Assembly: GCA_963971425.1 (NCBI GenBank) | Contig: OZ020521.1 | Span: 7,395,519 to 7,459,518, forward strand | Direction: 5' to 3' | Length of the DNA: 64,000 nt | Source: Bryoerythrophyllum caledonicum | Taxonomy: Eukaryota > Streptophyta > Bryopsida > Pottiales > Pottiaceae | Shown: positions 27,200-64,000 of the stretch, piece by piece | How the letters are laid out: every line of letters begins with the position of its first letter | How positions within the stretch are numbered: the stretch's first letter is position 1 | Notes under the pieces: generated by a model | What the model was told of the DNA's origin: nothing | Seen by the model: only the letters and a program-made list of their open reading frames with translations | Database searches by the model: none | Position numbers and translations under genes: made by a program

Positions 27200-27355
27200 T
27201 TAAATAGTATAAATTTGTTGGGAGTATGTAGAATTATTAAAATAGGAGGAGGGATTCATGTCTCGCCGGCTGGGGTGGCGCCAAAGGCGCCAAAAATAGA
27301 CTTACTAAAAATAGAAATTCTAATAAAAGTAAGAATATATACGAATCTGATTGAA

Positions 27356-38705: not shown

Positions 38706-39855
38706 CATAGGAGCCGTCCTCACGGCTTAGGGTTTTGAATTGAAGACGTCCAGGGTCTCGAATCGGGCCGCAAGCTCTCTTTCTCTCTCTCCTTTCCGTG
38801 CTCCTCTACGTGTTCTCCTTCGTCTTCGTGTTCGTGTCTGTGGTGTGCATGTTCTCCTTCGTGTTCGTGTTTGTGTCTGTGGTGTGTGTGTTCTCCTTTG
38901 TCTTCGTATCTGTGGCTTGTCTAAGTTAGTTTTGTGTTTGTGTTTGTGTTTGTCTTCCGCTCGTGCTGGTGTTGCGCGTCTGTTCGTGTAGAGTATTTCT
39001 CAGTTCGTGTTTGTAGAAGCACTTTCAATAGAGTTTCTGTTAGGGTTTGTTGCGCACGTTCTCCGAAACGTGTAGACTTAGGTTTTCTGCTGATAGGATT
39101 TGCAGGAAGTGAGGGTTTGAATTGAGTGAGGTTTCAAGCACGTAGAGATTGAAACGCGTGAAGCTATGAAGGATTGACGTGATTTTCGAACGAGGAGGAG
39201 GAACAAGAAGCTGAAGAAGACTTTCGACACTTAAAGGTATGTGTACAGATCGCGTTCTTGTACAAATGTTTCATAGTTTTTCTGCTTTTGTGAATTATGT
39301 TTGATGTTCCGTGTTTTCTGGTTTTCTGTTAGCTGAAATTATGGTGTTTGGTGGTGTTTGCTGTGATAGTATGGATTTTTTTTTCCTTCAGGCATTTGTT
39401 GTGTTTTATTGCTCTTAGTTTCTGATTGTATTAGGAGTGCGTGTGTTGATTGTTGTTTTGTGGAATTGGTGTTATGTTCTGTCGTAGTGTTGATGCTAGT
39501 TCATTTTTAAAATAGAAAATTCGTTTCAATGTGTAGCTTTGAATTTGCTGCTTTGTGTTGAATGTGCTGATTTCGATGTATAGAATGTTGAATGTATTCA
39601 TTGTTGAATGTGTTGAAACGTCAATGTGTTGAATGTTCAATGTATTGCTTTATGTTTAGGTTTTTCTGTGGTTCTGCATTCTAATTGCTTCTGTGTGGTT
39701 GTATTTTCTGTCTGCATGTTGTTGTTTATTGGTTTTGGGATAGAGTGATTGGTTGTTTGATTGATTAGTTGATTGATTGTTTGTTATTGATCTTGCAGGA
39801 CGTCTAGATCCAACAGATTTGTCTGGGATTAGAGTTCATAATCAATGGCTGAAAG
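38706..39855 (+). promoter_or_regulatory. Untranslated leader exons of the ParB/methyltransferase unit
   Basis: A CT- and TTCGTG-rich leader from about 38.75 kb ends in CACTTAAAG followed by GTATGTG (donor at 39235 or within a few bases). A second small exon, 39799-39855, is bounded by TTGCAG and by GCTGAAAG followed by GTAAAATC. The next acceptor, TGTGCAG, is at 40943, placing the palindrome array inside leader intron 2. Exon calls rest on splice signals only. Confidence 0.5.
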
Positions 39856-39964
39856 GTAAAATCCATAGTCTAATCCAGGAGCCCTATACCCTACGCCTTG
39901 AATATCGTTTTACAAAACACAAACCTGTAGAAACTGTAATACATAATCATTTCAGTCAACACAT

Positions 39965-40515
39965 TTTAGCTCGAGTCGAGCTAAAGTGGAGCCCAAATAG
40001 GACACTGTTGGCTACACTTAAGCTCGACTCGAGCTAAAGTGCGGCTAAAATTACACACTCTTGACTACACTTTAGCTCGACTCGAGCTAAAGTGCGGACA
40101 AAGATGCATTAGACCAGTACAGTTCTGCTCAACAGAAGCTTAACTGTACAGGACCAATGCATCTCTCTTGGCACTTTAGCTCGAGTCGAGCTAAATTGCG
40201 GATAAAATTACACACTCTTAGCTACACTTTAGCTCGACTCGAGCTAAAGTGCAGACAAAGATGCATTAGACCGGTACACTTTTGCTCAACAATAGCTAAA
40301 CTGTACAGGACCAATGCATCTTTGTTGGCACTTTAGCTTGACTCGAGCTAAAGTGCGGCCTAAATTACACGCTGTTGGCTACATTTTAGCTCGAGTCGAG
40401 CTAAAGTGCCAACAAAGATGCACTGGTCATATTTACAACTCAATAACTCTGCCTATTGAAATAATAATCAATCTAATTATCAAATCCAAGACGCTTTACC
40501 TTGAATCGAGCTAAA
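39965..40515. repeat. Palindrome array P1 with 53-bp period in a leader intron
   Basis: Copies start at 39965, 40018, 40071, about 40122, 40175, 40228, 40281, 40332, 40385 and 40495; nearly all steps are 53 bp. Copies at 40122 and 40281 are degenerate (TGCTCAACAG-type centres). Units repeat with a 157-bp super-period of three palindromes (40071 to 40228, 40175 to 40332). Flanking words such as AAGATGCATTAGACC reappear inverted as GGACCAATGCATCT around the degenerate copies, so each super-unit is itself a foldback. The core sequence is the same as in the 20.2-20.6 kb array, but spacing and spacers differ. Confidence 0.95.
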
Positions 40516-40943
40516 GTGTAAAACAGAAGTCATAAACCACAACCAAAACATCACTACTTTCATTTCTAAAAACATTCCAAAAGTAAAGGTTACCGATGAC
40601 ATCGATGACCCAACTCATGACCACTTCTCGTTCACCTCTCAGAAATTGTGCATGAGCTTAAGTCCCGCTCCAACCACTTGAGAACTTCATAGAGTGAGCT
40701 TCATCAGTGATTGGATCGGTTCGGAAGCTTTTTCACAGTTTCGGGTGTTGAACAAGAAGTTGTTATGAATTGATTGCATGGGTTTAGGAAAATATTAAAA
40801 ATGACTAAACTATGTTGCAAAATGTTAAGTAAATACTCTTTCGGATACACTTTAGCTCGACTCCAGCTAAAGTCTAACCTCTCCGTCCTTACTGGATGAT
40901 CAATTTAGCAATCAAATATTTGTGCTCGGTTTTGTATGTGCAG

Positions 40944-42409
40944 ATCTGAGAGGGACATGATGGTGACTCAGCTGCAGCACTTCTTCCAGCCGAAGCCCGT
41001 CGACATTGATGATGACGATGGAGACGACAACAACCACTTGGATTGATGGGAGCTCAAAGATCCAACAATGACTCTGAAGTGGACGCTGCTGTGGGCCCCC
41101 TACACAGAGAATCTAGTGTTTGGTTAGACCTTCGCTGGTGATATCAGTGAACCCCAGCACACCGACTTCAAGACCAAAATTACTGATGTAGTCCACGAAG
41201 ATAACGATCTAGTGAAGTTGTCGTGTGAAACAACCACTGAGTCTGTCGATCCTTATTTGTTCACTATTGTAGTGAACAATACTTCGTCTCCATTCTGTAT
41301 CTACAATTTAGTCAGTTCTCTTAGGGGGTCACAATTTAATGATATAGTGGCTCAGGTCGACCACGAAATCTCACAAAAGAAATGGGAGACTAGTAGTGGT
41401 CAGCGGCTGAAAGCGAAGGCTGTAGCGAATAAACTCCGCGTCATTCTTTCCAGAATGAGTACCTTTGCCGCTCTTGAGAAGGCAAAATTAATCGCGGCAA
41501 GGCGCCCAATAGAACTATCGGTAGTATCTAGGGCCGTGACCGGTAGCCAGAATATGAGTCAAGCGTCGGTACCGGTTAGAACTCCAGGTGCAAGAACAAG
41601 TCGAAGCACCCTACGCAACACGATGTCCGCTTCTCCCGTCAAGAAGCGCTCAGCTGCCAAGAAGCCGGAGACCTCTTCGAGAAAGAAGACGAAGCTCGTA
41701 TCACAGGAGGAGTTAGCCAATTTGATGGCCTCTGCACTGTCGGAGCTCCTTTCGGCGCTCGGGTTCGGAGAGGTAATCGACTACACCAACGTCCAACAGA
41801 TTTACCAGAAATTCTAGACGGAGTGACAGACCTGCTTCTTCCAAGGAGACAGAAAGATGAAGATTGAGCTTGACGTGATGAGGCTGCATAATGCACCGCC
41901 GGAGTGGATGATCCGTGCATTCGAACCTCGGGGTATGGAGGAGTTGAAGCATTATTACCTCGAAATGCCGGACAAGACGCAGAAGCAGACTCTCCGCGTC
42001 ATGCCCAAGCTCGATCATATGCCAACGACGGTTCAAGAGCTCAGCGACTGCGACTTCTATATCATCAACGGCCAACACAACGTTGCTGCATCAAAGTCGA
42101 TGATAAACGGCAACGTCCCGGAGGTTATGAGAAGGCACTTTCGAACATGGCAGTGTTACATTGTCTGGACGGAGGACCCTGAGAAGCTGAGGAAGATTTC
42201 CGCGTATTATAATCGCGTAAATCACTTGGTCCAATTCAAGCCGACGTGGGCAACAAATATCTTTGGCTCTCGGGCGTTGTGGATCCAAGCTGGTAGACCG
42301 ATGCCAAAGCACTCCGCTGCAGGCATTCCCGGGTCCCATAGGTCAGGTCGGAGAACGGCAGTGGAGATTGCCAATGACAAGAAGTTTGAGGTGATTAATC
42401 TTAACCAAG
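40944..42409 (+). pseudogene. ParB-like (DGQHR-type) domain exon of a mobile multi-domain gene
   Basis: This exon follows the acceptor TGTGCAG and ends at AACCAAG before GTCATGC. The first part encodes an acidic stretch (DIDDDDGDD) and a Ser/Lys/Arg-rich linker (KKRSAAKKPETSSRKKTKL). The later part, from about 41857, holds DCDFYIINGQHNVAASKSM and CYIVWTEDPEKLRKISAYYNRVN. This fits the ParB N-terminal/DGQHR fold, where the usual motif is (D/G)GxHR, but here the Arg is Asn. The exon carries a few in-frame stops, so this copy is probably inactive, though splice sites and overall reading are well kept. The next exon encodes a methyltransferase-like domain. ParB-methyltransferase fusions are known from bacteria and phages. 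Confidence 0.55.
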
Positions 42410-42616
42410 GTCATGCACTTTAGCTCGACTCGAGCTAACTTGTGTGTTTGCACACTTCTAGTACGGTTTTGTATACAGATTCAATCACTAATAGTGTATA
42501 CTCTCCGGTTGCAAGTTAGCTCGACTCGAGCTAACCTGCATTTTTTGGACCTGCTCGTCATGTTTATTTTCTATTGTGATTGTACACTAAATCAACCCTG
42601 CCTATGTTCTGCACAG

Positions 42617-44014
42617 CCATTTCTAAACGCGGTTTGTGAGCGCTTTGCAATGATCGACGTTGCAAAGAGCTAGGCAGCGCTTAAGAAAGCCGGAAAGGCA
42701 AAGGAGCTCTCAATTACGAACGAGGTGAAGATCATCACCGCGACAGATGAGACCTTCAAGCTCTGGTCGGACGTCATCTCTTCCACGGCACAAGGCGACT
42801 TCATCAACGTCGATTCGACAACGTCGCCCTTGTCAAAATTTAAAGACGCCAAGTCCTGGGTGCCTGAGAAAGATGGGGTTTTGACGCGCGAGTTCTTCAA
42901 ATTTTTCGGCAACATGACCGAGGCTGATCACGCAACACTGTGTAAGCATATACTCAATCAATCAGGACCATCGCGAAAACTACCTTATCCTAAGGTGGTT
43001 GTGAAGCAGCCGCAATCTGTGCTGGAGGATTGCTACAACGCCCGGGACTAGGTCGATCGAAGGAAGAGGAAGGAGGTCGCTCGGATGGAGCTTCAGTTGA
43101 TCAGGCCGGAGCTCGCCTTCTTCAACAGCACTGGAGCGTACAATCGTTTCAACTGGCAAAAGTTTAAGACGAACTACAACGTGAGCAAGGCCTCAAAGCG
43201 TGCCCTCTTGGATTGGGGTCCACCGGATTCGTACTACGCAAACTCGAGGCAGACACAGTTTCGCAACTGCAAATGTGAAGATCTCTCTCCGTATGCGAAG
43301 GAGTTCTTCAGAGTCTTCATCGATGTGCGGTCGCGGTTCGTTGCACCTCAGGGGGCCTTGCACTTTCGTCCATACAAGGCGGCAACCAACTCGCTCGGAG
43401 GATGGACCTGAGATTCGTGGCGTAACATGGGCTGCAACGTGAAGCTCGCCATCATCGACTTCGGTAATATCCCTGGTTTTGCAGGGAAGGCAACGTTGTC
43501 ATTGGAGAAGGTTGCCGCCTTGTATGGACGAAAGTGCAAGGCCCTTCTTCGACGAGTTCATGACGATGTTCGCATCGAAAGGGCAACCTCCCCTCACCGG
43601 TCTTCCAGCGTGGCTCTTCATTTGCGGCGATGAGCAGTCACACCTTCAAGTGACAGCGTTTGCTGAGGGCCCATCGTTGTGCCATGCGTACGATGTGCTA
43701 CAGTCGAAGTATCTTCCCTCAGAGAACGAGCGTTCGGGGGGTTCGCGCCGAAGACCAACATCGCTCTCGACCCAGTTTGGCTCCTCTTTCTCTTCAAGAA
43801 AGAGCTTACGCAGATCCCGGCCGTGAAGAAGATCTACGCAGCTCCGGAGCATGTCTTGCACACCAAGCCACGCAAGTACAACGAGCTAGCCTACTCCATG
43901 AACATGAACGAGTTGAGGATGGAGTTCTTCATCAAGGTCCTGGAGCTGTTCTACAAGAGGGGGGATTCTGTTGTCCAGCTGTTTGGCGGGACGAAATTAC
44001 TGACTACGAGTGTG
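42617..44014 (+). pseudogene. DNA-methyltransferase-like domain exon
   Basis: Bounded by TTCTGCACAG and by GTAAATATC. The order of motifs suits a permuted amino-MTase. LLDWGPPDSYY is a motif-IV-like (D/N)PP(Y/W) block. WLFICGDEQSHLQ suits the strand after it. KIYAAPEHVLHTKPRKYNEL comes before the C-terminal block GDSVVQLFGGTKLLTTSVV, which fits the AdoMet-binding motif I (D.F.GTGT). The family call is moderate because no single motif is canonical. The exon has some frame breaks and contains a perfect 35-bp inverted repeat (43353-43387 with 43510-43544). The ParB-like exon lies directly upstream, and the intron between them has two P1 palindromes. Confidence 0.5.
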
Positions 44015-44300
44015 GTAAATATCCCTGCAGTTTAGCTCGACTTGAGCTAAACTGTTGATTCCTCTCTCTGCCTATGCATGTATTGTTTCAGCAAGGTCGT
44101 CTCTCACGCTTTTGTAGCGTGGCACTTTAGCTCGAATCGAGCTAAAGTGCCGGCTTATACTTATTTGGTTTTCTAGCAGTCATCAATCGCGTCGTATCCT
44201 TTCAAGTTTTAATAGCTGCGTTTTCGTATCAGTGTTCTTTTGTACTCACTTTAGCTCGATTCGACCTAAAGTGTAACTTGTTCAATCCATTCGTGTGCAG

Positions 44301-45264
44301 ATGTTGGATCTGGAGGCATTCTGCATATGCCACAACACCGATGAGCAGGACCTCGACGACGCCCAGGAGGTTGCGTTGACATTGGATCGGACCGATTTCA
44401 ATGTTGATGCATATTACGTCAACGCGGAGATCTTCCCCGTGCTTGGAGAGGCCGTTGCCAAGGGGAAAGGAAAAGCGGTTATTGATCTCGTCGATGAGGA
44501 AGAGGAGGAGGATGTGGTCCCGAGCCCCCTAGGTGTGTGCCCGAGCACCAGTACGGCCACACTTGATGCCGATTCCCATGACGATTTCGAAATCGCCACT
44601 CCGCCGGAGCTTCATAGTGGCTCTCAGTCTGAAGCGGGTGAGACAATGGGTACCTCGCGGCAGCGGCTCGAATTCCTGGAGTTGGAATCGCTTGATATCT
44701 CCGAGAGGCCTCATTCAGCTCCGACCTTGGGTGGGTCATTTGCTCGGCCCGCAGCCAAGAAGAGGAAAGTCGCCAGCGCGACCGGCCGCTCTCCGTTGGC
44801 AACGACAAGCAGTGCTCATGATGACATCAGGTTTATCGCCCTAGAGAAGAAGCTTGAAGAGGAGGCCACCCGGATGAGGTTGATGGAGCAGCGGCTGGCA
44901 AAGCGTGACGAGGAGCTCAGGGATATGCAACGGAGGCGTGACGAGGAGATGAAGAGGGACCAAGACCAGAGGCATAACGATATGATGCTCATGATGCAGA
45001 GATTCATGACGGCTACTTTGCTTCCTGTCGCCACGACACCACCCGTAGTGAATACTACGATCCCCCAGCCTCCCATCTCAGCTGAAGAAGGGATTGCGAG
45101 TCTACCTCGCGGTTTGCTGATGCCGTCTCCGGCGGGTTCCTCCCCCGTCTCCATGGGGGCTCAATCACTGCCTGATCCCCCGTCCCCGCCGACCCGCCCC
45201 TCTTGCCTTCCGAAGTCGCCTGATCGGGACGTATCTATCGCAAATGTCCCCAACTCATCGTCAG
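44301..45264 (+). CDS. Acidic and coiled-coil extension downstream of the methyltransferase-like domain
   Basis: Exon bounded by CGTGTGCAG and by CGTCAG before GTTAGTG, open throughout. It begins LDLEAFCICHNTDEQD, which could finish the methyltransferase domain. It continues with an acidic tract (VIDLVDEEEEEDV), a basic patch (AAKKRKVASATGR, NLS-like), and a strong coiled coil from FIALEKKLEEEATRMRLMEQ through about 55 residues, ending Pro-rich. The layout suggests a nuclear, self-associating protein. Function is unknown. Confidence 0.55.
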
Positions 45265-45470
45265 GTTAGTGTACGTAGTTGTGAGTGTATAGAGGCAGAA
45301 CATTTTGTAAATGTCCAATTTTGTACTCCAGTATTTTTTGTTAATATTACAGTGCTCAGTGATCACTTCAGCTCGACTCAAGCTAAACTGTTTGACATCA
45401 TACGACTCTGACTTGTATCAGTGTCCTATGTGCGCATCTGCTGATGGTTAAAGTTGTTGAATTTTTTTAG

Positions 45471-46634
45471 ATCTAAGTTTTGGTGATGACGTGATTGCTC
45501 AACCAGTCGTAGATGAGGTCGTCCAAACCGTAGTCCCAATCGTAGAGGATGTCGTCCAAGCTTCGGCCGTGCGCGTAGATGAGATCAGTCATGATTCTCC
45601 TGTCCCGGAACCGTGCCCCCTCTTCTTGTCCCGGAACTGTGCCCCCAAATGGTTCTGGAGCACTCGGAAATCCTTGACACCATGCAGGTTTCGTTGGGAT
45701 CGATGGAGGTCCGAAACGAAATACCCCGAGACAATGAAGTTCTCGAGGTGCTCTTCTAACACTATTCACACTCTGTGCTTCCCCATGTCGCTGCCCCCCC
45801 CCCTCGTTTGCTCTCTTCGTTCTACATTATGTTGACTTGTCGTTGTTAATGAATCTTTAGTAATGTTGTTCGTTCTCCTGTCGTTTCCGAACCAGGTCTG
45901 CGAGGCATCAATAAGTGGTGCCAGTAATTTAGAAGAAATACCTAGAGTCTTTTCAGATCCCGAAGGCAAATGGTTGAATGTTGTGCTGGACCTAAATGGG
46001 ATTCTATGCACGTGTAAGCCATCGTGGCAAGCCAGGGGATCCAGGAACTCTATCCCGTCCATTCACTCCGCTTCGTTGCCGGCCAAAGTAGGCCCTAAGC
46101 TAGTTCGGGTGCGCCTTGGTTATGCTGAATTCCTTACGAAGTTGTCTAAGATTGCCACCATCACGATCTGGAGTTCGATGATGGAATCCACAACACGTGA
46201 GATATGTCAATATCTTTTTCAGCATAGTTCTGCGTATCCTCTCAGGATCTTTGGTCAGGAGAGTTGCGATAGGGTTCCCGAGCGTAGAGTCGGTAGCAGA
46301 ACAATCTACATGAAGGAATTTGGCACTCAGAAGGACATCTTCTTGAAGACGTTATCGAACCATCTCTTCAATAGCTTGGGCCGTGAGTATACTCTGGCAA
46401 ATACGCTTGTCATTGACGATAGCCCGATTAAGCATGTGCTCAATTTGCCGGAGAACGTCCTTCTTCTTCCGTCATGGTCGCACAACCATGATGGCGCGAG
46501 TGATGATTCTGTACTCCTGGAGGAATTGCTGCCATATCTCTCTGACCTTCATCAGTTTTCGGGTGGCCTAGCGCAGTACCGTGCTGAACATCCCTCGGGC
46601 CGGGAGATGTTCTATAATGATCAGAAGACGTGTG
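45471..46634 (+). CDS. FCP1/SCP-like HAD phosphatase domain
   Basis: An exon starting at 45471 (DLSFGDD) and, after an apparent intron ending with acceptor ACCAG at 45895, an exon 45896-46634. The latter has the FCP1-like HAD core. Motif I is VVLDLNGIL (Asp kept; the usual second Asp is Asn). Motif II is TIWSS. Motif III is TLVIDDSPIKHVLNL. The spacing fits NLI-interacting/CTD-phosphatase proteins. In the family the first Asp forms a phospho-enzyme; the Asn at the next catalytic position may lower activity, though D-x-N-G-x-L variants occur in plant relatives. It lies in the same orientation as the ParB/methyltransferase exons and ends at a donor (GTCAGT), so it is probably a 3' part of that gene or its operon-like neighbour. 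Confidence 0.65.
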
Positions 46635-46957
46635 GTCAGTCTGCGAGTATTTGTACCGCAATTTAAGCCTATCAGAATCTCCATTCCTAATGTAGTTGGA
46701 AACGCTTAGAACCTTAATACACTTTAGGTCGAATAGAACTAAATTGTTTCCATTGACTGCAGCTCCATTTTGTAAATTTTGTTGGACTGTGTTTTGTATA
46801 TATTTTTTGATAATACAAATGGAGATGTATCTCCACTGTGTTTGTTGTGCGGATTGGATACCTTCTGCTGATAAAATGTCGTCCTTTTTTTAATGATTGA
46901 AGTTTTCATCTATTGTTCTGAGGTATGTGAGTGTCACTTTTGTTGAAATTTCTACAG

Positions 46958-47815
46958 GGCTGTGATAGTCGGGCATCCGTGGATTCCTTGTTGGGCCCAC
47001 AAGAGTTCGCCCTTTCCCTTCGGAGTAAAGGGCTTTTGTTGCACTCTGCTGCAACCGCGCAGTCAACCATGGATTATTTGACCATGGCAGTGGACGACGG
47101 AGTTGTTGAAAGCCCTATTGCGCGGGAGCCAATTCATGAAAGGAACAACTCACCTTCGCCGCACTCGCCACGTTCAGTTCCGGGGTCTCCGCATCTAAAC
47201 CTAGATAATTGTACTCTGGCAAAGCGTATTCTCTATGACGGTTTAAGGGATGCCACTTACCAACGCTCGCTCACGGTGCGTGTTATGCTGACCTCCAAGT
47301 TATTGCACTATTGAGTCGTTCTTACCTAGGGAGTCTTGGTTTGTTGTTGAGGTACCTTGCACTCTTGTAGTTTTGCTTCATTTGAGCTTGTTTTTGTTCA
47401 TTGGATGTTAAATGTGCTATGTGAATTTTCTCTTCTGCATCTTAGCTCTAATCGACCTAAAGTGCAATAGGATGGATCTTGATGATGCAGTTTTCATGTG
47501 TGCCGTGTAGGTGTATTAGACCTAAAAGTGTATTTGTTTGGATTGTTTGTGGCGCCTATTGTGCAGGAACCATTTGGTAAATGTCTTCGCCCCCGTATTC
47601 TCTCAAGAAATGGTGCTGGAATCAAATGCTCTCCTTCCGCTCCCACCCGCCGTCACTCGCTGCCCAAATCAAACACGGACGAGGTGCGTAGGCGGGGTTT
47701 GCAGCGTCTTCTTGAGAGTCCATTAATGCAAGAGAATGGCGCAACATGGACTAAGCAACGTCAAAGGGCTTTTTTGAAGACGCGTATAGAGGCTTATGGA
47801 GGGACTCCCTAGACT
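46958..47815 (+). CDS. C-terminal exons of the ParB/methyltransferase/HAD unit, unknown domain
   Basis: Two exons, 46958-47275 and 47567-47815, with good splice signals (TTTCTACAG; CTCACG before GTGCGTG; TTGTGCAG). The first encodes DSLLGPQEFALSLRSKGLLL and a Ser/Pro-rich linker (NNSPSPHSPRSVPGSP). The second is basic (TRRHSLPKSNTDEVRRRGLQ) and ends KTRIEAYGGTP. No known domain. The intron between them and the one before each hold a P1 palindrome (47441 and 46723). Confidence 0.45.
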
Positions 47816-49676
47816 CTTTGATTAGTGATAGGGCGATTGTGTTTTGCCTCGAGGTAAATGAGTGTTGTGTGTGACTTTTTTTCATGAAGTTTTGAATATA
47901 GCTTGGATTAATGGTATATGCTTCCTTTACCGTTACCACTTTTTGGACAATCAACTATTTTGGTCCATCCATGGTATGAAATATAGTATTCATGATACAT
48001 TGTCTTTATGCTTTGCACCTTCAAATGTCTATATTTATTGATACTTCAACGACCATATATCTTCATAATCATGGAAATTTTCCAATATAACGAATATGGT
48101 GTTAAAGCTTACTATCTAATTTTTTTAATTTTCTCCCATTTCTTTCTAGATTTAATGCTAGTGTCCAAAAGCGAGTGGGAACACCTTCCCACATATTCCT
48201 CACAGCCTCTGACATGGTCCTACCCTTTCAATTTCCATCCACCCTATGGATGTATCGCGGCTCGTTTAGGTTTTGTGGCACAAGTGTAACTACTATTGAT
48301 TTCAAAGGTCCCACGATAGCCCCAATCTTCCTGCCACTCAGATGCAAGAGGTGCTTGATACCACAATGCTAAGTCATCAGAAGGCCACGTATTGGCAGTT
48401 GCAATGTTGCATTGTGTCATTGGAGTCTTATGAAGTTATGGAACTTCTTGATGAGTTTATCTAATGAGTCCATCTCCTCAAGTAACATCATTTTGAGGCC
48501 ATGTTCAAGAAGGCGGACAAAGCTTGGTTTGCAATTGCGGATCCACTCACTGCGGCTAAGTCGACGTCAACTTCGTAAAAACGGGTATAAGAGTGAATAT
48601 TCCTTCAGCGAACGTTGTTCATCATTAGTTCTTGCAATATTTCTATCACGGAATTCTGTTTCTACCTTCCATACGCCAATTGCAAGGAAGCTCCAATAGA
48701 AGTGCTATGAATGAGTTGTTGGATCTGCTTTGAAACCACTCAAAATTGCTTTGTTCGGAACGTGATTGGCAGAAGGATGTCAAATTGAAGGGGATTGACT
48801 CAAGTTCCATAATGTGGCAGAAAATACGTCTTCCATATTGCCGCTAGAAGAGTGCACTTGTTTGCATATTCATGGAAGTCCTCAAGAAACAATGGTGGCT
48901 GCGTTGTGGTCCACAGAGAGGCAAACATCGCAACACCTATCATGGCAAACACTTTCAATACATAAGAACGATGTCAAAGTAGTGACCAAAAGGAAATACA
49001 GACTACTTACAACAATATGAAGGTACAAGTACACATACCTAGTGAAAAACACTCCACAATGGACCCTTGCAAATTGCATCCAGAACCTACATCCTTGCGA
49101 CAAAATACAACTTATAGCTCTACTCGAAGCTCTACCAATTTCTTTCGTTGTTGATGAAAATGACTGTGAATCCTCCCCTAATGATCCAACATATAATATA
49201 GGTTCAACACTAGATACCTCTTTTAACTAGTATTTGAGTAGTCCAAAAAATTACAGCTCACAAACGGCGCACAATTTATAAAGTAACGGTGTTTCATGCA
49301 TGGAAAGGGTATGTGACCATATAAGGTAATTCTTTTATTACAAAAGAACTTCGTATTACAGTAATTTCTAATTCATGCTCAAAGGTATAGCGTACTATAA
49401 GAGACATGGTGAATTCTCTAAACTACCATAGTTTCTTATAATTTTCATACAATACTCAATTTTGTCTATATGAAGTATCCAAGAATGCCTTTGTTTATGG
49501 ATGGATCGAATAATGGAAAAAAGTTGTTCGGTAATGTGTTAAATTAGTCTATGTGTTTACAGTCAATATTAAATGGGACATCCACATATGCATCAAAAGA
49601 CTCCAACAATTACAAAGATGATATCAAACAAAAGTAGGCTCCATATAAAATCAAAACAAAAAATCAAACCGAAGAA
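47816..49676. other. Stretch without a supportable gene
   Basis: Only fragments of frames are seen, such as FKKADKAWFAIADPLTA near 48.5 kb. They are too broken to assign and probably come from an old transposon. AT-rich. Confidence 0.4.
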
Positions 49677-52660: not shown

Positions 52661-52675
52661 TGACATCTTCGCACA

Positions 52676-52945
52676 TCGATCACGGCTCAGCGGGCTGGCT
52701 GAGCATTCCGCCACACTAAACTAGTTCAAAGTTCGATTCCCGTAGACTCCCTGAACGGTTAATGTGACGCGTGGTCCTGGGGGCTGCTAAAACCTTAGCA
52801 GTGAGACAGCCGGTTGACGCTCCTAAAGCCTGAGCTAGTGACAAGATGCAGGAATATCATTCCCAAGATAAGGCTCGCCCCGGTAAAGTATGACCGTGTG
52901 GTTGAGGATGAATCCACTAGTCATATCTTCACTGTTGGCCTAGAC
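52676..52945 (+). mobile_element. tRNA-derived SINE
   Basis: A pol III A-box-like word (GGCTCAGCGGGCTGG, from 52684) and a B box (AGTTCGATTCCCG, around 52729-52741) are spaced as in a tRNA-derived promoter. They are followed by a roughly 200-bp unrelated body containing CCTGGGGGCTGCTAAAACC and ending near a T-rich stretch. The head resembles AU-type plant SINEs. It does not fold as a functional tRNA. No target-site duplication was fixed. Confidence 0.6.
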
Positions 52946-53924: not shown

Positions 53925-56900
53925 TCATGGTGATACGTGGCATAAAACCCCAGTTTCTAGAACACGCTTCACTTCATTGAAGCTAAAGCTCGGGGCATGC
54001 ATAAACACATCAATTGCGGAATCCAAACTACAGATAACAGTAAAGATGTAGTAAAGATGCTTGCATTGGGTCCATTGTCCTCGTTTTCCTAAGGACTTTG
54101 TCAACATCTCTTTGAAGTATGGACATGAACAATCTGGAAATGAACCTACAGTGATCAGGTACTGTTGAGAATTGGGAACTATACCGGATTCTAGAGTAAC
54201 GATGCATCCAAATCCTGGATGAGGTACCATGGTCACTTGATGAATGCGACACTTGAGGGTGACAGCTGATGCACAATTGTTGAGATGTTTTGTTGTAGGA
54301 GCCCTCATATTCCTGCGAATACTCTTCCCAGATCTGATCTTAGGATATTCATCAGGGGAATCCATAGTGGAATGAAAACTCATATCAAGGGTAGGACCTT
54401 GACTACCAAAAAGTCGTCTTGGAGACATCGCCACACGCTGAGGTAGTTGAAAACCTGCATTCTCGAGTGCCAAAATTTCTTTCTTCGAAAGATTAGTTCC
54501 AATTTGAACTGGCCAGACACTTGGAACATCAGGTTTCGAGAGGACCCACTTGCGTTTGGTGCCCTTCACACAACGCTCGATGTCGTCATTGCAGAAGAAG
54601 AATTGCATGCGCTCGACCTTGTTCTTCTTATAATTGTCCATCATTCCAACATAGGTAGGAGCAGGAGTGCTTTTGTTGTCTTGCACAATTCTTGCAATAC
54701 ACTTCCTCTTGGTAACTGCCTGTAATGCAAAACATGCTTTTGCAGAAGTCTTTGGCAATCTAGCAATGTGCCATTGCGACTTATTGCATACAGTCTCCTG
54801 AACGGCAGTAGTATGGCTTGAAAGAGATCTCAATGGAGATTGAATCACCTCTGTTGCCATGGGAACGGTTTCTTCTTCAGGTACGGAAGAAAGAAACTCC
54901 TCGTGAACATTACTCATACTAGGTGCACCCGTACGAGCTCTGGATGTTCTGGTATTGATTCTTGGATAGGAATAGTTTACCTTGTCAGGCCGATGGGACT
55001 CGTGCTCGTCACCTAAAGGCATGTCGGGCTTGCGTTTTTGACTACCAAATACTTCTTCTCCTTCCATGTGGGGATGACGAGTGCAAAATTCATCAGCTCC
55101 AGGCATTTTTGCTATTGCCTCGTTGAGAACCTTGGGGTTTCCAAAGCGAGAGACAGAGCGTTGGGCAACCCTTAATAGCAACTCCTCCTTTCCAGGCCCA
55201 TTGCCTCCACGTTCCCCTTTAAGAAACTGATAATACTTCACCACTTGCATAAATGCCCTAACAAAGTCATCCACAGTGGCCACATACAAGTCATTTCCTC
55301 GATTTCCGGACTGCTGGAGCCATTTGTTGTGGACTGTCTCTGCAAGATTGCATGAGGGCATCTCGGCAAGCTCAGCCTCATTAAGATTCTACACACATGC
55401 CATGGAATGAAGGAACAAAGGTGTTATTCAACAAATAACATGGAAATTGATGAGTACGAATATTTTGGCACATAAATGAATGGTTTCATAAAACATGTAT
55501 ATGGCTTTCGCTTACCAATTGCATAAAGCCACCCCACTGGCGGTATCGAAAATGCCAAAATGCTAGCCACAGCTCCAAACGACTCAAGCTCTCCCCCGTT
55601 GCGGCACCTAAAGAATGCCACCATCCTACGATGGCGTGGTAGCGAGTTTCGGCCTCATTAAATGTTGTTGCATTCTTATATTGCTTGCAAAGCTGTCGAT
55701 GTTGATCTTGGAGGTCAGCCTTGATGTCGGCCTTCGTATGCTTCTCAAGAGATTGGGTCCAATGGAAGAAGCATGTTCGTTCTTGATTGGCCATTGGGAT
55801 GGATGCATCGCCACTTCCATAGATGACCCGCACTGCATTCCAATTTGCTTGCGCGCTATCAGCCATGAATCCTTTGAACTTAGGATCCGGTATGTCATGC
55901 CTAGCTGCTACTGCATTTAGATTCTTCCAAAAAATGCATTGAGCAGCGGCATCTTCAGACTGCATATCACAAACCGCCACAGTCATAACCCTACACAAAG
56001 TTGAGTCGTACACATGGCAAGCCATCGTGGTCCACTGCTTTACACGCTTGACATGGTCAAACATCAACCATGCGTCTTCGAGGTCGCCGGTGGGCTGCAT
56101 TCGTCTTACCAAGTCAACTCCACTTCCTGGCCCCACTTCAGACATCTTGAAGACAAATACCTTATCTGAATCAGATCCTTGGCCCGGAAGTTTATTTTCC
56201 TGAATGAAAGCCCAATTGCTGCAACCCCTCAATTTTGTGATACTATCCATGATGCCATACCGCCGTAGGTACTTGAAACTTGTGACCTGATTTCGAATAC
56301 TAGGTGAACTGATGGACTTGCACATATCCAAAACAGGTACTAACTCCTCCAGGTTCAAGGTCTTCGACGGAACATCTTCAGGTCGTAGAAGAAGCTCTCC
56401 AAGAATATCTTTACTTGCCTCCAAAACAATTGCAGAGGTAGTAGCATTTGGGGTCCTTTCAACATGCTCCCCAAGAAGGGCATTGGTCCTCTCGATCAAC
56501 TCCCTATAGTCACCAACTTTGACAGGATGTCTATGAACCCCTAAATGCACACATGCGCGAGTCATAATTGAACTGCCAAACACATAGTATATTCTAGAAT
56601 CGCAGCTAGCAAGGCAAGAAGGGGGTGTCTTACAAATCTTACAAACCAGTGATGAACCGTTCGGTGGAAGACAACCAACCCCAAACTTTGCCGAAGTCGA
56701 GCCCTCCCACTCCGTACTGTTGATGGAAGATGTTCGATGGACACGAGTCAAGTAGGCACAATTGCGGTTATTGCATTGGAGATGGCCCACACAACTGGAT
56801 GTGCGAAATGTCAGTCCCGCGTCATTTTTGATATGCGAGGTAATTGTCTTTGTCCAAGCGTGGCCGTCGTATCGCTTGTCCATTCCTGTCATCAACTTCG

Positions 56901-57615
56901 CTTGCGAGAGCATTCCAGAGGCTTGGACGGGAGGTAATTCAAAAATGACATCCTCATTGAAATCAGGGGGTAGACTATGTACTCTTTGAATACAAACAGT
57001 ACTATAGTCAAGCTTCTTGAGCATGTTTCTAGATCCTTTTCCATCACGTAACTGCTTTAGTGAGTCAATAATACTAACAGAGTCACTAAAGCTCGTAGGA
57101 GAAGATCCACTTCTACCCGAGATGCGATCAACCGATGAATCTGGCCTTGAGCAATCAACGATGGTACGCGACAAAGGAATCTTACGAGCAGGAGAATCAA
57201 TATCGGAGTCATCACTTATGATAGTGACAAAGTTAGAATCAAGCTGAACCTTTACTTCAGAGAGTATGGGAGCATTTGAACAATGAGGAGTACGATCCTC
57301 TGCGGATGGGTTCTCAGCAATGTAACTTACGCCATAGACTCTGAATCTACCTGGCTTAAGCAACCACTGCTTCTCATTATCAATATATGTATGATGCTGA
57401 CCTAGCGTATGAGTAATGCGTCCAGAGGAACCATCAAACATTTCTTCGTCGAGATACAAAGAGTCTGCTTTCAAATGAAATCTCAGGCTCAATCGTGACG
57501 CAGAAATATGAGCAAATCCATCTTCAAAGAGAGGGATTGTGAAAGGCAAACTATCAAGAGAAGCGCGTATGACAGCCATAGTGTAGTGACACTCATCTAT
57601 CTCCTTTGCGGCCAT
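53925..57615 (-). CDS. MULE transposase with WRKY-GCM1 and SWIM zinc fingers, apparently intact
   Basis: Two exons, 57615-55516 and 55388-53925, join in frame across a 127-bp GT-AG intron (1187 aa). The start is the first ATG (MAAKEIDE), a little after a possible leader acceptor at 57647. Residues about 250-370 form a WRKY-GCM1-type finger: SCVGHLQCNNRNC, VCKICKTPPSC and HLGVHRHP. The MULE DDE core has Asp 520 (AWLMFDHV) or a nearby Asp first, Asp 586 (FMADSAQANWNAV) second, a CxxH in TCFFHW, and Glu 717 in NLAETVHNKW. The intron separates the second Asp from the Glu. Near residue 1120 is a SWIM finger (CSCPYF ... CKH). MULEs of this make are cut-and-paste DNA transposons. No stop or frameshift is seen, so this may be an active or recently active copy. 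Terminal inverted repeats were not found by eye. Confidence 0.85.
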
Positions 57616-58295
57616 TCCGCCAGAGGTACTATCACACAATTGCAATCTGGAAAGGACTCTAGAAGTCAATGTCAATGAATATATTCAGTGCCTATGAGAG
57701 GAAGTAAATCTGAAAGAGATCAAACGATTGAATTGACCACAAAGTAAATCAACAGCTGTGATGCAAGAGATTGATGAGGTGGCAAATCGTAAGCCAGTAA
57801 TGAATATTATTGGTTCCTAAATCTGTAGTATAATAGGACTTGATGACAAAGAATTGAAAGATATATATGAAATAGATCTCTGGGCCTGATTGGAGGTTAG
57901 TGAAGCAATTCTATTGGGATAATCGACAAGATTGACAGCTTTGCCAGTGCACTGAATGGTCAATAATAGACAAATAACTGAGACTGGACGCCGTCACCGA
58001 TGTCAGTGATAGTCAAAATAGGATAGTACTCGTGTACAATATAGAGTGTATTGTTAGTCGAATTCCATTTTTGATGACTGTTAAAGCACGCTGAGTACAT
58101 CGAGATGAGAATTGAACGAATAGTTACACAGTAGTACAGATTCATCATCCCTATCGGTAGTCTCCATAAAAGGACCCGCAGTTGTGGTGTTTCAATGGAG
58201 AGTGATGAGATGGTGATTGTGATCATGTTGGTAGGTGTCTAAGTAGGTGACTGAAAATATATGTACTTAGAGGGGTTCGGTATTCTCTAGTTCAA
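57616..58295 (-). promoter_or_regulatory. Upstream region of the MULE gene
   Basis: AT-rich, no coding sequence supported. On the minus strand CTTTCCAG at about 57654-57647 could be the acceptor of a leader intron. It separates the MULE from a divergent short exon at 58296. Confidence 0.35.
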
Positions 58296-58619
58296 ATGCT
58301 AAATGGGCAGTTTAGGTCGCCATCAGCACGAGGTAGAAGAGGAAGAAGGAAGACCGGATTCAGATTCTCCAGTAGAAAGACCATAACTAGATATAGATTG
58401 CAGAAAGAACTGAAGTTGAGGGAAGGTCAGGGAGGTAGAGAATGTTCAAAGGGGTCAAGTACAAGTGAAGGAAGTAATAGGAATTATGAGAGCAATGGAG
58501 ATGACGGTGGAGCTTCTGAAACCAATATATCAAATCTGATGTCTACGGTGAAGGAGTTGAGATTTGAATCAAGTGCATCGGAAGAAAGTCACGGATCCCA
58601 ACATATCGCACTGGCTGAG
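58296..58619 (+). CDS. Short basic exon of an unknown gene
   Basis: ATG at 58296, open for 108 codons to a good donor (CTGGCTGAG followed by GTAGGTTTTG). Arg/Lys-rich N-terminus (SARGRRGRRKTGFRFSSRK), then Ser/Glu/Asn-rich. No downstream exon was recognised. It may be the second, divergent gene of the MULE or an unrelated host exon. Confidence 0.3.
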
Positions 58620-59470
58620 GTAGGTTTTGTCGATTGCCTTGTACTTTTGGAATTATTTCATTGTTTATTGAGAATTATACTCTACAAATCTAATGATTTG
58701 CATTGATGCACCATTTTGCTAAATGGACTTCAATTTAGAGAATTGAAGAAGTAACAACACTATAAACATTGATAAGAAGCTGAATATGTTCATTCCATTT
58801 TGCAACTAGATTACAAGAAACTGAGAGGGTGGCCTTACTGAATATGGAGGCTGGCAATAAATATACTAGATAATACTAGATAATACAATAACCTTAGCGC
58901 ACATTTGTCCATTGTCCTTATTCATTAACTGCTTCATTGACCAAGAAGATTAAGTAAATTAAACTAAAATACGCATAACACCATAGATCCATGGTCGAGT
59001 ATAATAATTTTGATTCCGACTCATAATTTATGAATCATCAGAATAACATAATATATGATAATCACCAGTATGGACTTATCAAAATTTGGACGGGAAGTCA
59101 AATATTCAGCTCTACAGGATCTTAAAGAATACTAAAAGATTACTATTCGTTACTACTGCGGATTAATGAGGATGCATTTCAGTTTGCAACGCACCAATCT
59201 TCAAAATAACAGGTACTTGAGGGCCTACGAATTCATTAAGATTCGTACCTGCTGAATGTAGTACGAATACTGAAATGAATGGTCGTCATCCTCTCGAGCC
59301 GGAAACCCTTGGCCAGGCTATATGCTCTTTCCCAGAGGTCGCAAGCAGCTTCATCTATTCTTCTGTTTTTGGATCAGGTGGTCTTATGGTCGTTCAGTTT
59401 CCACGTAGGGTTTGTTCTTTGCTGTGCTGACGAAATGAACTGAGATTTCTGTGACTCTTTCCCAGAATGA
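58620..59470. other. AT-rich stretch without a supportable gene
   Basis: No coding frame, repeat or RNA gene could be supported here. The right part probably contains the promoter of the second ParB-like gene. Confidence 0.4.
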
Positions 59471-59779
59471 GGCTCACGCACGTTTGGATTGGTGGGGATG
59501 CAGGAGTGTGGTCACCGTAAACGCGGCGACCGGGTAGCAACGCATATTGACAACCAGGACTTTGCAATCACCATCGGCGGTTTCTGCAAGGTACAATATC
59601 TAACAAACATTGAATCGCATGATGTATTCAAGATTCACAATTCTGATTCTAGGGTTTGATCGGGCTATGTTCATTTGTTCACTGAATTTTGCGTTAGGGG
59701 ACGTGCTATCACTTGGGAGCCGCTGGGCGTGAGTAGGTCGTAGATTAGGTTATACTATTTCCTCCGTCGGTGCCGACGT

Positions 59780-60180
59780 TGTTCGATCCTGAAGATGTTG
59801 TTCGATCGTGTGGAATCTTGAGTTCAGATTCACATCAATATAAGGTTTCACACTCACGCACAAATGAGTTCAGATTCGCACTCACTGACGAATGAGTTTG
59901 GATTGAGTTTGGAATGAGTTCGGGTTCGTGACATTGGATTCGAGCGTCGTGAAGTCTTCTGTGTGTGACGTTGTTCGATCCTGAAGATGTTGTTCGATCC
60001 TGAAGATGTTGTTCGATCGTGTGGAATCTTGAGTTCAGATTCACATCACTATAAGGTTTCACACTCACGCACAAATGAGTTCAGATTCGCACTCACGCAC
60101 GAATCAGTTTGGTTTGAGTTTGGAATGAGTTCGGGTTCGTGACATTGGATTCGAGCGTCGTGAAGTCTTCTGTGTGTGGA
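59780..60180 (+). repeat. 211-bp tandem duplication
   Basis: Two nearly identical units are offset by exactly 211 bp (TTCGATCGTG at 59801 and 60012; GAAGTCTTCT at 59951 and 60162). Internal words such as GTTCGATCCTGAAGATGTT and CACACTCACGCAC also repeat within a unit. The second unit has a short extra copy of the first of these words. Confidence 0.9.
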
Positions 60181-60542
60181 TTCGTTAGTGTAGCCAACTT
60201 CACGAAAACTGGTTGCTTTTATGAGGTCTGCGTGTGGTTGTTTCTATGAAGATTATTGCGTGGGAAGTCCTGAAGTTGACAGAAAGAGTGTTCGTTACTT
60301 GGGTGGTGATGGTGGGGACGGTTGAGTGTCGCGGGAACTTGTTGGAGGGCACCACGTGGTGGGACATGAGTCCTTGCTTCGGATTGGCCTGGGTTTCGAT
60401 GGTTGGTGGTGGTCACTATGACAGTCGGTGGTGGACCATGTTCAGTGGTCAGCACCCGATACAACGATCGATTAGATAGGGACTACCTTATGTTGATCAG
60501 CTAGCGAAGGCATGAATGGAGTGAAGAAATATATGAAGGCGA

Positions 60543-60835
60543 ACTTGATCCTGCCAGTAGTCATATGCTTGTCTCATTAAATTGTGCCACGCATGTGTTA
60601 GTACTGTGACTGCGAATCTCATTAAATCAGTAACTGTGGCTCTGATGGTACCTTGCTACTCTAACCGTTGTAATTCTAAAGCTTATACATGGACAAACTC
60701 CCGACTCGGCTCGACTGGGAGAGACATATTTATTAGATAAAAGTCCGATGCGTGCTTGCCTGGAATTGCGGTGAACCATATATACTTGACGAATCGCACG
60801 GCCTCTTGCGCTGGCGTTGATTCATTATGATTTCA
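60543..60835 (+). pseudogene. Diverged 5' fragment of 18S rRNA
   Basis: The stretch follows the first roughly 300 nt of plant 18S rRNA in order. It begins CTTGATCCTGCCAGTAG and TCATATGCTTGTCTC almost at the mature 5' end. Then come CTCATTAAATCAGT, GGTACCTTGCTACTC, GTAATTCTAAAGCT, TATTTATTAGATAAAAG and CGAATCGCACGGCC. Many substitutions and small gaps show it is not a functional rRNA gene. It ends about 9 bp before the second P2 palindrome. Confidence 0.85.
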
Positions 60836-61928
60836 TGAACCAGCGTCGGTACCGACGCTAAATATTTACCACCATTTGGCTGGAATATTTACGACACTAA
60901 AGTCGATCTTTCATTCAAAGTTTATCGTTGGTATGTGAGTTGAGGCCTATTCTTGAGCTGATTCGTCTGGAAGATGTTGTGAGAGTTGAATGCACTTCAA
61001 CCATCCAGGGCGTTTAACCAACGTCGGCACCGACGCACCTGCCCTCCGGATTTATTTCACTGAGAAACTCCATAGATTTATCGCGTTTGATTCATTTGCT
61101 GTTTCATTGAATGAGTATATCTCTTTCTAAATATGATCATCTGGTTATTTAGTTAGCTATCTTATGATAATTAGTGAGCCTCATATGGGCTCGTCGGTAC
61201 CGACGATCTTCCTTTGCAGATCTGAAATAACCAAGAAATGAATCATGATTACAGAAAATGCTTTAGAGGGTCCAAGTTCTCATTAATGTCCCGTCAAGAT
61301 GGTGATTCTGCTTTCTTTTATGAATATTCTGTTGAAATGAATTGATTGTAATAAGCACCACAATGATCGTCGGTGCCGACGTAGTCATTTTCTGTTTAGT
61401 TCATCACAGTAATGTTTGTTTGATTATCAAATTATACTTGATATATTGGTCCATATTAGCCTAGAATTATTGTACTTTGGTCGATCCCTTCCTTTGTGAG
61501 CGCGTTCCTGAGTAGATCCTGACTGCGAGTTGCCAGCAAATCCCCCCGGAAGCTGTAGCAGGGGTGCCGTCCTCTCCTATGTGTGGCGACCATAGTTGAC
61601 GCCGCTGCTGGCAACCGTGATGGTGCCTGGGCTTCCGCCGTGCTATGGGAGCCCGTTCTTCGAGGGGGCGCTGGAGTTCGTGATAATTGTGTAAAGAGTA
61701 TACGGCCGCTCCCGGAGTAGCGTCGGTGCCGACGTTGTTTTTTGGCAGCCCATGCATACCCATGAACTGTGTATGGATTGAGAACATTTGGATTAATTTA
61801 TATAGAGTTCTCAGATTTTGGTTGATTCTTGTCTGGTATTTGCCTTTGCTCTCGTCTCATTATATTGTCATCCTTTGTAGAATTGTGTTGCTTAGATACT
61901 AATTATGATATGACGCAAAATTCAGGTC

Positions 61929-64000
61929 ATGGACCCATCATCATCTCAACGGTCTACCCGATCACCCGAATTCTCTGGTGGCACAAGTTCACATCCGGAC
62001 GCGGAGGTTTCGGTGGCGGATGAGGTGGATTGTCAACTACATCTTAACGAAGATGAGCTTCGTCAACACCAAAGGGTAAATTGTATCTTTGCCATAGACA
62101 GCCTTCGCATTGCACCCAAGGCTTCCTCTCGCCTTGATGTGCCGTTGTGCAGGCTTGTGTACATGCCACTTGTCCGACCCACACTGGAGTCGGATATTAA
62201 GCGGTTGGAGGCTGAATTTACTCATGGATATCGCCCAGGATCTACCGTGTTTTATGTTTCTCTTTCCAATGACCTCGGTGAGGAGTCCTTTGTCACCGAG
62301 GAGGATAGAGGAAAATGGGGCCCATTATGGAACGCAGCCAATGATCGCTTTGAGTCAAATCTTTTGGCTACTCCCCAGTTGAGCTTCTTGAGGAATCGTA
62401 AACTCTTCATATGTGATGGAAATCATCGGTTCAAGGCATGGATGGGATATATTGAAAGAATGCACAATGCTGATGTAAATTGGCACATCTCTGTGGATTG
62501 CATTTGTTTGGATATCAAAGGCAGTGTCGGATTGGCTCTTCATGCTATGCACGATATTAACAGGTGAACATCATTCACTGAGTCCTTGCAATATTCATTC
62601 GGTACTTGCATCCTGGATTCATTGTTTGATTGTTGATTCTATTGTCCCTATGTAGAGCCACAGAAAACTCACACGTCAAGACCAACTTCATGCACATACT
62701 CCATCGAATTAAGGCGATTGGAAGTCAACCACTTGAATCATTCTAGGATTTGTTGACTACAGAGGATTATCACAAGTGCTTGGCTAATCCTGGGAGAGGG
62801 AAGTCATGGTATCCATTAACAGTCGATGTCTTCGTCTCTCTACTCTTTCGGGTCAGTATTTTCACTTTTATGTTTTTCGGTTGTAAATGTATGCATTTAT
62901 TGGTAATTTCTTATATTCTTACATATAAATTATATTTGATATGGAATTATACCATTTCAAACCTCTTTACCAATTGCTGTTGGACCTCAGCAAGAGATTG
63001 CTGATGCATCAGATGAAGCTGCCAGAGTGTACCACGAAAATACTCCTGTGGAACTTCGGATTGACTCTGAGATTACCACTTCAATGCGAGGTGCAGCAAA
63101 GGCAAAAATTCAGATGTACAAGGGTCAGTGGTCCAAATATTCGGCCGTTGCAAATCCAAAGCTTGGTGACCAATTCCTTGAAGAGGTAAAAATGATTCTT
63201 TAATATATTTGTTATTTCATCTGAAGTTATATACCAACATAGAGTGATTATTCAAAATAATTTCTCTCCTTATAATTTCAGATTACAAAGCATTGGAGTT
63301 CGAATTCAAAGCCAGAGATGACTTTGGATAAGTTACAGTTGATTGCAACTTCCAATGTCCCATCCCATTTCAAAGTTCGATGGCTTCTGTGGTGGAATTC
63401 TAGCAATGCCACTAGGGAAGCTCTCCACTTTCCTCATAAAGGATTCAGCGATAAGGAGTTAGACTCGTGGTTAAACAAGGCATCCTTTTGGGCCGGAGTG
63501 AGTTCTGTTTAGCAAATTTCTTAATTTTTATGAATTAAGTTCATCATATTTTGGAATCGGTTCGTTCATTAAATGTTTTCAACCCAAGTGAGTAAGTTAA
63601 TGTTTCAAAATTTGATCATTGTAGCTTGAAGTCGCCGTATCTGAGGAGTTTGAGAGTGTACTTAAAGCCGACAAGCTGCCTCTGAAGTTGGACCTACCGG
63701 AGAGACCTCGATCTCCACAAGAGTATGTGGAAGCATCAAGGGTTAAATTTTGGGTGCATGCCTTTCCAACACTCTTAAGAAGCAAGACCACATTCTCAAG
63801 GTCAAAAGAATTTAAGAACCACAAGAATATTGACTTGGCTGTGAAGCGAGTTGTTTGGAGGTGAGTGGGGTATTTTAGTGATATCAATTACAAGTCATTG
63901 CCTTTAATTTATTTATCTAAATGTGTTTTTGCAACTTTCAGGTATTATATGAAGGAGCTCTTTGTTAAGGGTGCCCTTGAGAGACATCAGCTTCCATTGT
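61929..64000 (+). CDS. Second ParB-like domain gene, multi-exon, runs off the window
   Basis: ATG at 61929 just after a splice acceptor. Exons: 61929-62563, 62656-62851, 62991-63185, 63282-63497, 63625-63860 and 63942 to beyond 64000, with phase-consistent GT-AG introns. Near residue 160 is RKLFICDGNHRFKAWMGYI, a canonical ParB/Srx-type (D)GxHR motif, followed by a beta-strand and helix (VNWHISVDCICLDIKG) typical of that fold. Later exons (ITKHWSSNSKPEM, HFKVRWLLWWNSSN, KFWVHAFPTLLRSK) match no domain I know. One in-frame TAG lies in exon 2 (between ESF and DLLTTEDY), a single C-to-T step from CAG. Otherwise the frame is clean. By analogy with the 40.9-kb unit a methyltransferase part might follow beyond the window, which is a guess. 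Confidence 0.6.

Follow-up and report, generated by a model that had tools for sequence, protein, structure and literature searches.

To our knowledge, VANC is the only case known in detail of how a transposon tells its own copies from host DNA and evades silencing while the genome as a whole stays closed. In this anti-silencing system of the Arabidopsis VANDAL transposons (PMC5735166, PMC10398659), the protein binds its motif and DNA methylation is removed. As described in PMC5735166, VANC21 binds a motif of 9 bases found in the introns of its own transposon and in that element's intergenic and terminal non-coding DNA; the introns of VANC21 and VANB21, as well as the region upstream of VANA21, contain tandem repeats bearing this motif, and the related protein VANC6 uses a different one. 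Here we analyse a 64,000-nucleotide stretch of Bryoerythrophyllum caledonicum DNA (contig OZ020521.1, positions 7,395,519 to 7,459,518; hereafter the window), in which positions 16454-48103 are one DNA transposon with terminal inverted repeats (TIRs), element 1, carrying a divergent gene pair, a DUF7869 gene and gene A. Its predicted introns hold many copies of a palindrome, P1, and a second palindrome, P2, recurs in the predicted first intron of a further gene, gene B. Because the layout of element 1 is close to that of VANDAL21 with its VANC21 motif, we propose, as a reading that is plausible if somewhat short of probable, that P1 is an element-wide self-recognition motif comparable to that of VANC, read by an element-encoded protein whose identity and effect we infer.

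The likeness to VANC/VANDAL, as far as the latter is laid out in the sources cited, consists in a short element-specific motif placed in introns and other non-coding DNA and partly in tandem, in the pairing of a transposase or transposase-like gene with an accessory gene, and in a motif that differs from family to family. The differences are that P1 is a palindrome of 21 bp or more, while the VANC motif is a 9-base word, and that element 1 has a 4-bp target-site duplication (TSD) together with DUF7869 and, in the pieces scanned, no VANC-type domain. Two further described groups are relevant. The Sola DNA transposons have 4-bp TSDs, TIRs of 11-1124 bp and some members over 15 kb, and are present in a moss (PMC10741241); element 1 fits them, as portrayed there, by TSD, TIR and size, in a comparison covering these three features. 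In prokaryotes and phages the ParB-CTPase fold often occurs on mobile elements and in fusions with methyltransferases, and DUF1015 (as ‘DU1015’) is listed among the domains of proteins with this fold (PMC12704722). The window itself reads as eukaryotic, containing genes with introns (by splice signals), a long interspersed nuclear element (LINE) and a fragment resembling 18S ribosomal RNA (rRNA), and all that follows describes a single copy of element 1 within this one 64-kb window.

Element 1 and the distribution of P1

The borders of element 1, the LINE nested in it, its DUF7869 gene and the places occupied by P1 are as follows.

16450-16453, TSD AAAG, left copy (sequence next to the TIR)
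16454-16482, plus strand, left TIR of 29 nt, the first 22 exact (blastn minus-strand match)
16633-16800, degenerate P1 sites near the left end at ~71-bp spacing, 72% alike to 36920-37058
17292-19950, minus strand, DUF7869 gene, taken to be transposase-like, damaged (PF25273, 5.7e-35; in-frame stop, frame changes)
20052-20585, P1 array of 10 sites in the predicted 5' intron of the DUF7869 gene (motif search; acceptor signal adjoining the ATG)
21535-21545, LINE TSD TGCACGTGTAA, 11 bp, left copy (sequence comparison)
21546-35773, plus strand, nested LINE with RVT_1, RNase_H and PCIF1_WW (TSD, domain matches)
35774-35784, LINE TSD TGCACGTGTAA, 11 bp, right copy (sequence comparison)
36969-37058, degenerate P1 sites akin to the 16.6-kb ones (sequence comparison)
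39856-40943, plus strand, predicted first intron of gene A with a P1 array, 10 sites at up to 5 mismatches (motif search, splice signals)
42410-42616, plus strand, predicted gene A intron with 2 P1 sites
44015-44300, plus strand, predicted gene A intron with 3 P1 sites
45265-45470, plus strand, predicted gene A intron with 1 P1 site
46723-47461, plus strand, two degenerate P1 sites (46723, 47441) in the last inter-exon gaps of the gene A model
48075-48103, minus strand, right TIR (blastn, inverted-repeat search)
48104-48107, TSD AAAG, right copy (sequence next to the TIR)

The TIR sequence starts AACACCATATTCGTTATATTGG, and the two copies match at 93% identity (blastn, E 4e-6). Besides P1 and the TIRs, no exact inverted 18-mer in the window has copies separated by over 1 kb; the TIRs account for 5 of the 91 overlapping pairs, and 20 shuffles gave none. 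AAAG directly flanks both TIRs as a 4-bp TSD, a match that taken alone has a chance of 1 in 256. The 14.2-kb LINE was inserted into element 1 later and splits it; with the LINE subtracted, the transposon measures 17,422 bp. We take its DUF7869 gene, which bears a Pfam domain of unknown function, to be transposase-like from motifs that we recognised in it. The damage to this gene comprises at least one in-frame stop as well as frame changes. Pfam domain searches covered the DUF7869 gene and gene A in pieces, and the part of gene B that lies in the window; the scanned pieces of the DUF7869 gene showed no recognisable ParB domain, and the word DUF7869 was found in no paper of the open-licence literature searched.

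P1 is the palindrome TTTAGCTCGA-N-TCGAGCTAAA. The window holds 37 sites at up to 6 mismatches and 33 at up to 5, the latter cut-off having been chosen after the longer list had been inspected. Of exact 10+1+10 palindromes, whatever their sequence, there are 13, and the exact P1 arm is carried by 11 of them; 100 shuffles averaged 0.05 such palindromes and never exceeded 2. All 33 sites at the stricter cut-off lie within element 1, with none in the nested LINE and none in the other 32 kb, which rules out P1 as a window-wide satellite; among the sites with exactly 6 mismatches, three are outside element 1 (690, 8718 and 59105) and one is inside (47506). The preliminary description of this locus had proposed a mobile element with its own palindromic sites in introns, and this idea is strengthened, since all 33 sites fall into one TIR-bounded transposon.

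None of the 33 sites overlaps the exon model, though exons make up 8,026 of the 17,422 bp. The models were built, without transcripts, from splice signals and open frames, and the intron limits used in this count are rougher than those listed above. The corresponding chance figure of 1.4e-9 exaggerates the significance, because it assumes independent sites, which is untrue for array copies. In the DUF7869 array the last eight sites are spaced by exactly 47 bp; the splice acceptor of this intron was read from the sequence beside the ATG, and its donor was not identified. In the gene A array (39965-40405) the spacing averages 52.5 bp, that is, five helical turns, if a degenerate unit at 40123 is counted. 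Downstream of the first intron, gene A has another 8 sites, which are spread over five of the model's six inner introns with one to three in each.

P1 is ruled out as a private site family of gene A, since the DUF7869 gene, too, has its predicted first intron filled with P1. With arrays in the predicted first introns of both element genes, P1 tracks the element and not the ParB-like domain. The earlier view that each ParB-like gene sits beside its own palindrome family consequently does not hold for P1, which is also present near the left end and in the 5' intron predicted for the DUF7869 gene; the span then assigned to the system, 39799-64000, leaves out the left part of element 1.

This distribution bears on two explanations that dispense with an accessory reader. 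The first, which we regard as somewhat unlikely, is that P1 is read by the transposase alone, with end and 5' intron sites serving synapsis and autoregulation and the inner copies resulting from duplication. Subterminal repeats of En/Spm-type elements work in this way, and such a role would suit the P1 sites at 16633-16800, close to the left end, as well as those in the 5' intron predicted for the DUF7869 gene. However, 18 of the 33 sites belong to gene A, including the 8 scattered over its inner introns, and no site at up to 5 mismatches lies within 600 bp of the right TIR. The second is that P1 is a passive minisatellite, spread within element 1 by tandem and foldback duplication and read by nothing. 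While the clear tandem arrays, with units of 47, 52-53 and ~71 bp, are what this would produce, P1 sites of separate introns share little past the palindrome (ungapped comparison), P1 avoids exons and is confined to element 1, and P2, with its non-homologous intervals, would be left unexplained. We therefore consider the minisatellite improbable.

Gene A, gene B and P2

Apart from its introns, gene A shows the following parts.

41857-42409, plus strand, exon part with an NGQHN motif, weakly ParB-like (profile comparison)
42617-44014, plus strand, region with a methyltransferase hint, 3 stops and 2 frame changes (reading frames, profile comparison)
44301-45264, plus strand, exon with a coiled coil at ~44840-45010, judged by eye from the sequence
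45895-46663, plus strand, NIF-type phosphatase domain (PF03031, 1.7e-16)

We infer that the phosphatase exons and the ParB-like exon belong to one gene. NIF-type phosphatases act on RNA polymerase II tails and other phosphoproteins; the preliminary description did not mention this domain. Profile scores were judged against 85 controls (60 shuffles and 25 window pieces). Against the ParB_N profile gene A reached 18.63, the best control being 18.60, and it stayed below the best controls on DUF1015 (15.8 versus 19.1) and on the YbdM family (16.1 versus 21.6); all three profiles align to it at the NGQHN stretch. Gene A may thus belong to the ParB-fold superfamily, judging from these scores, while for gene B (below) membership is probable. 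The methyltransferase-like domain of the preliminary description survives as a weak hint: the piece covering motif X/I of beta-class N6/N4 methyltransferases scored 19.7, where 68 controls reached 15.7 at most, with an hhalign probability of only 3.4%, whereas the motif IV piece was not above controls and the joined reading had no Pfam match.

Three in-frame stops lie in the second exon of gene A, and three more, with two frame changes, in the third. Reading TAG as glutamine clears four of the six stops; two TGA codons and the frame changes remain. With stops and frame changes in both gene A and the DUF7869 gene, this copy of element 1 cannot encode intact proteins if the standard code applies, and as a coding unit it is dead. 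Within the damaged stretch of gene A there is also an inverted duplication of 40 nt (95%; 43353-43392 and 43505-43544), as from template switching.

Gene B lies to the right of element 1.

59591-61925, plus strand, 5' intron predicted for gene B, with all six P2 sites (splice signals: donor 59591, acceptor 61925)
61929-64000, plus strand, gene B, several predicted exons, running past the window end (reading frames, profiles)

It contains a DGNHR motif at 62415-62429 and one TAG in the second coding exon. Its best profile match is DUF1015 (PF06245), at the DGHHR motif of that domain (score 37.3, hhalign probability 71%, 31 columns; 85 controls at most 19.1), although only the motif region aligns and the function of DUF1015 is unknown. 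Gene B also exceeded the controls on ParB_N (21.8; at most 18.6), but on the YbdM family its 19.3 was less than the 21.6 of the best control, and in Pfam itself DUF1015 was hit below the cut-off (E 0.075). On the strength of these scores, gene B is probably a member of the ParB-fold superfamily. In a motif scan of 1227 open reading frame fragments from the window, gene B came first (21.8 bits) and gene A second (12.0), next to a chance fragment at 11.6. The arginine of the G-x-R/H-R motif is present in gene B (DGNHR) and absent in gene A (NGQHN); mutating this arginine abolished nucleoside triphosphate binding in the work described in PMC12704722. An equation of DUF1015 with the serine kinase SerK was dropped; in the portion of PMC12704722 at hand, both are named without being equated.

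Other searches with the two ParB-like regions gave little. Neither had a significant match in Pfam (ParB_N included), PHROGs, NCBIfam or the Protein Data Bank (PDB), nor relatives in viral contigs, where the exact P1 pattern was likewise not found. Among phages, gene B had no relatives and gene A a single chance-level protein in two records (E 0.9). Compared directly, the two genes gave no blastp alignment beyond 13 residues, and hhalign did no better than with shuffles. AlphaFold single-sequence models of both regions, a check proposed along with the preliminary description, had mean predicted local distance difference test scores of 34.0 and 32.4 and were unusable. Pfam scans of the gene A pieces, and of gene B within the window, gave no helix-turn-helix (HTH) above the cut-off; an HTH_Tnp_Tc3_2 hit in gene A, with an E value of 0.05, stayed below it.

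P2 is CGTCGG-YR-CCGACG, with six exact sites between 59765 and 61734 and none at 1 or 2 mismatches anywhere in the 64 kb. The sites, at 59765, 60844, 61022, 61192, 61368 and 61721, all lie inside the predicted 2.3-kb first intron of gene B, and their arms are identical at 12 of 12 positions in all six, varying only in the central YR. Since exact 14-bp palindromes are not enriched as a class (6 observed, shuffle mean 4.1, maximum 12 in 100 shuffles), P2 is unusual for the repetition of one word and not for palindromy. Its spacings are 1079, 178, 170, 176 and 353 bp. The last five sites follow a 175-bp lattice (R = 0.998), a regularity reached by none of 3000 random sets with the period left free between 100 and 260, and for all six the best period is 178 (R 0.983; reached by 10 of 3000 random sets); the lattice was noticed post hoc and at one locus. 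P2 is not a worn satellite, because the intervals are not homologous (15 interval pairs, z at most 2.1), and its interpretation as a diverged satellite was ruled out on this ground.

A strictly kept short box at about nucleosome spacing is familiar from the CENP-B box of the 171-bp alpha satellite. P2 shares both properties, but its intervals, unlike those of a satellite, are not homologous.

The same intron includes a fragment like 18S rRNA (60630-60834; E 4.5e-6, below the Rfam gathering score), which ends 9 bp before a P2 site, and a recent tandem duplication (59775-60178; 193 nt, 97%) that begins inside the first P2 site.

The preliminary description had drawn on bacterial ParB, suggesting that two ParB-like proteins load at their palindromes and spread as ParB does at parS, perhaps methylating them. 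Two palindrome families do exist, P1 enriched over shuffles and P2 with its six exact sites and no near-match, both genes adjoin palindrome clusters, and the DGNHR region of gene B beat all 85 controls on DUF1015 and ParB_N. In these respects, and in the resemblance of the gene B motif to that of the ParB-CTPase fold as given in PMC12704722, the locus is like ParB-parS. Of the two ParB-like genes then claimed, however, gene B stands on two profiles and fails on YbdM, while gene A ties with or falls below controls and lacks the arginine; there is no HTH above the cut-off in the scanned pieces and no Pfam ParB_N match, and P1 also occupies the DUF7869 gene, in which no ParB domain was recognised. 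As no HTH was found in these pieces, element 1 is not ParB-parS as defined, and we judge loading and spreading of this kind to be very improbable. Overall, the earlier interpretation is partly supported.

Palindromes as possible self-recognition motifs

According to the reading we favour, a DNA-binding protein made by the element would bind P1 as a dimer along element 1. The reader would most likely be the accessory product, gene A, or otherwise the transposase. Copies of the same family could thereby be recognised, and kept open against host silencing or readied for expression and transposition, anti-silencing being the likeliest use. The present, damaged copy would serve only as a target. 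Gene B and P2 would form a second system built on this logic but using a different motif, gene B being putatively mobile; the six identical P2 sites, five of them at nucleosome-like 175-bp steps, might mean that each linker or each nucleosome of the first intron carries a single bound dimer. We do not file element 1 as a VANDAL, the VANC domains having been sought in the scanned pieces without a hit; its way of working may be like that of VANC.

A broader version would hold that eukaryotic transposons other than VANDALs evolved self-recognition of their own, in which a ParB-fold protein reads a family palindrome seeded in introns and ends (P1) or at nucleosome spacing in the first intron (P2), thus making a eukaryotic, chromatin-directed use of a ParB-like switch. 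We consider this quite unlikely. Titles and abstracts of the open-licence literature contained no case of a ParB-like gene in a eukaryotic transposon among the matches listed, which is not proof of absence.

Several observations weigh against P1 as a self-recognition motif read in the manner of VANC, or against its extension to gene B. The last 600 bp of element 1 lack a P1 site at up to 5 mismatches, the last site being at 47441-47461 and the right TIR starting at 48075. The VANC domains DUF1985 and DUF287, those named in the sources as available, were not found by Pfam in the scanned pieces of gene A and the DUF7869 gene. Gene A does not score above controls in its ParB-like part, where NGQHN is without the motif arginine. 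The element around gene B is undelimited, with no TIR found in the window and its right end beyond 64000. Finally, arm positions 11-16 of P1 pair in 127 of 210 cells (35 sites), as compared to 113.9 in within-locus shuffles (p 0.0024).

The last of these points is also an argument for a nucleic-acid hairpin, as which P1 might work or persist by aiding splicing through pre-mRNA folding, by forming double-stranded RNA, or through foldback copying that matches the arms. By group, the pairing excess had p 0.0076 for positions 11-13 and p 0.057 for positions 14-20, the groups having been picked after a first look at the pairing; given this excess at the outer arms, a hairpin or foldback copying fits the flanks better than a fixed dimer site does, the core being constant. 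All seven P1 sites that were folded, picked among the better ones, formed stems of 12-14 bp at -14 to -25 kcal/mol, and six of the seven gene A introns of the model contain P1. Yet core positions 1-10 show no excess pairing over the consensus (299 of 350 versus 295.3, p 0.10), and P1 is also found near the left end of element 1. Moreover, the P2 stems are short, at -6 to -11 kcal/mol in all three folded out of six sites, and the P2 arms are invariant. On balance we regard the hairpin as improbable, to about the same degree as the minisatellite.

If P1 is indeed a self-recognition motif, element 1 would be a second, apparently unrelated element with a VANC-like layout but with a long palindrome as its word, and, together with the neighbouring gene B and its other palindrome at 175-bp steps, it would suggest that sequence-specific self-marking arose more than once. 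P1 and P2 would then supply palindrome-protein pairs that are directly testable.

The nested LINE and other features of the window

In the LINE nested in element 1, the open reading frame at 30854-35491 has a PCIF1_WW match (3.2e-11, above the cut-off) between reverse transcriptase and RNase H. PCIF1 is a cap-adenosine methyltransferase. On the basis of this match, a PCIF1-related domain may sit inside a retrotransposon without long terminal repeats; among the matches listed, titles and abstracts of the open-licence literature contained no case of a PCIF1 domain in a LINE, which does not prove absence. The upstream frame of the LINE (27200-30088) contains a 2A-like stretch, GGDIETNPGP, and a degenerate second one, GGDMETNPRP, ahead of an Exo_endo_phos domain that scores 24.6 bits against a cut-off of 24.5. 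Another copy of this LINE is represented by its 3' end at 1473-1995, with 75-85% identity.

Between element 1 and gene B lies a minus-strand gene (53925-57675) with two long open frames and a C-x-C..C-x-H tail, presumably SWIM-like. It had no significant Pfam match and is perhaps a MULE-type transposase, going by these sequence features. To the left of element 1, a single open frame at 10448-11878 encodes a Peptidase C78 domain, the UFM1 protease family.

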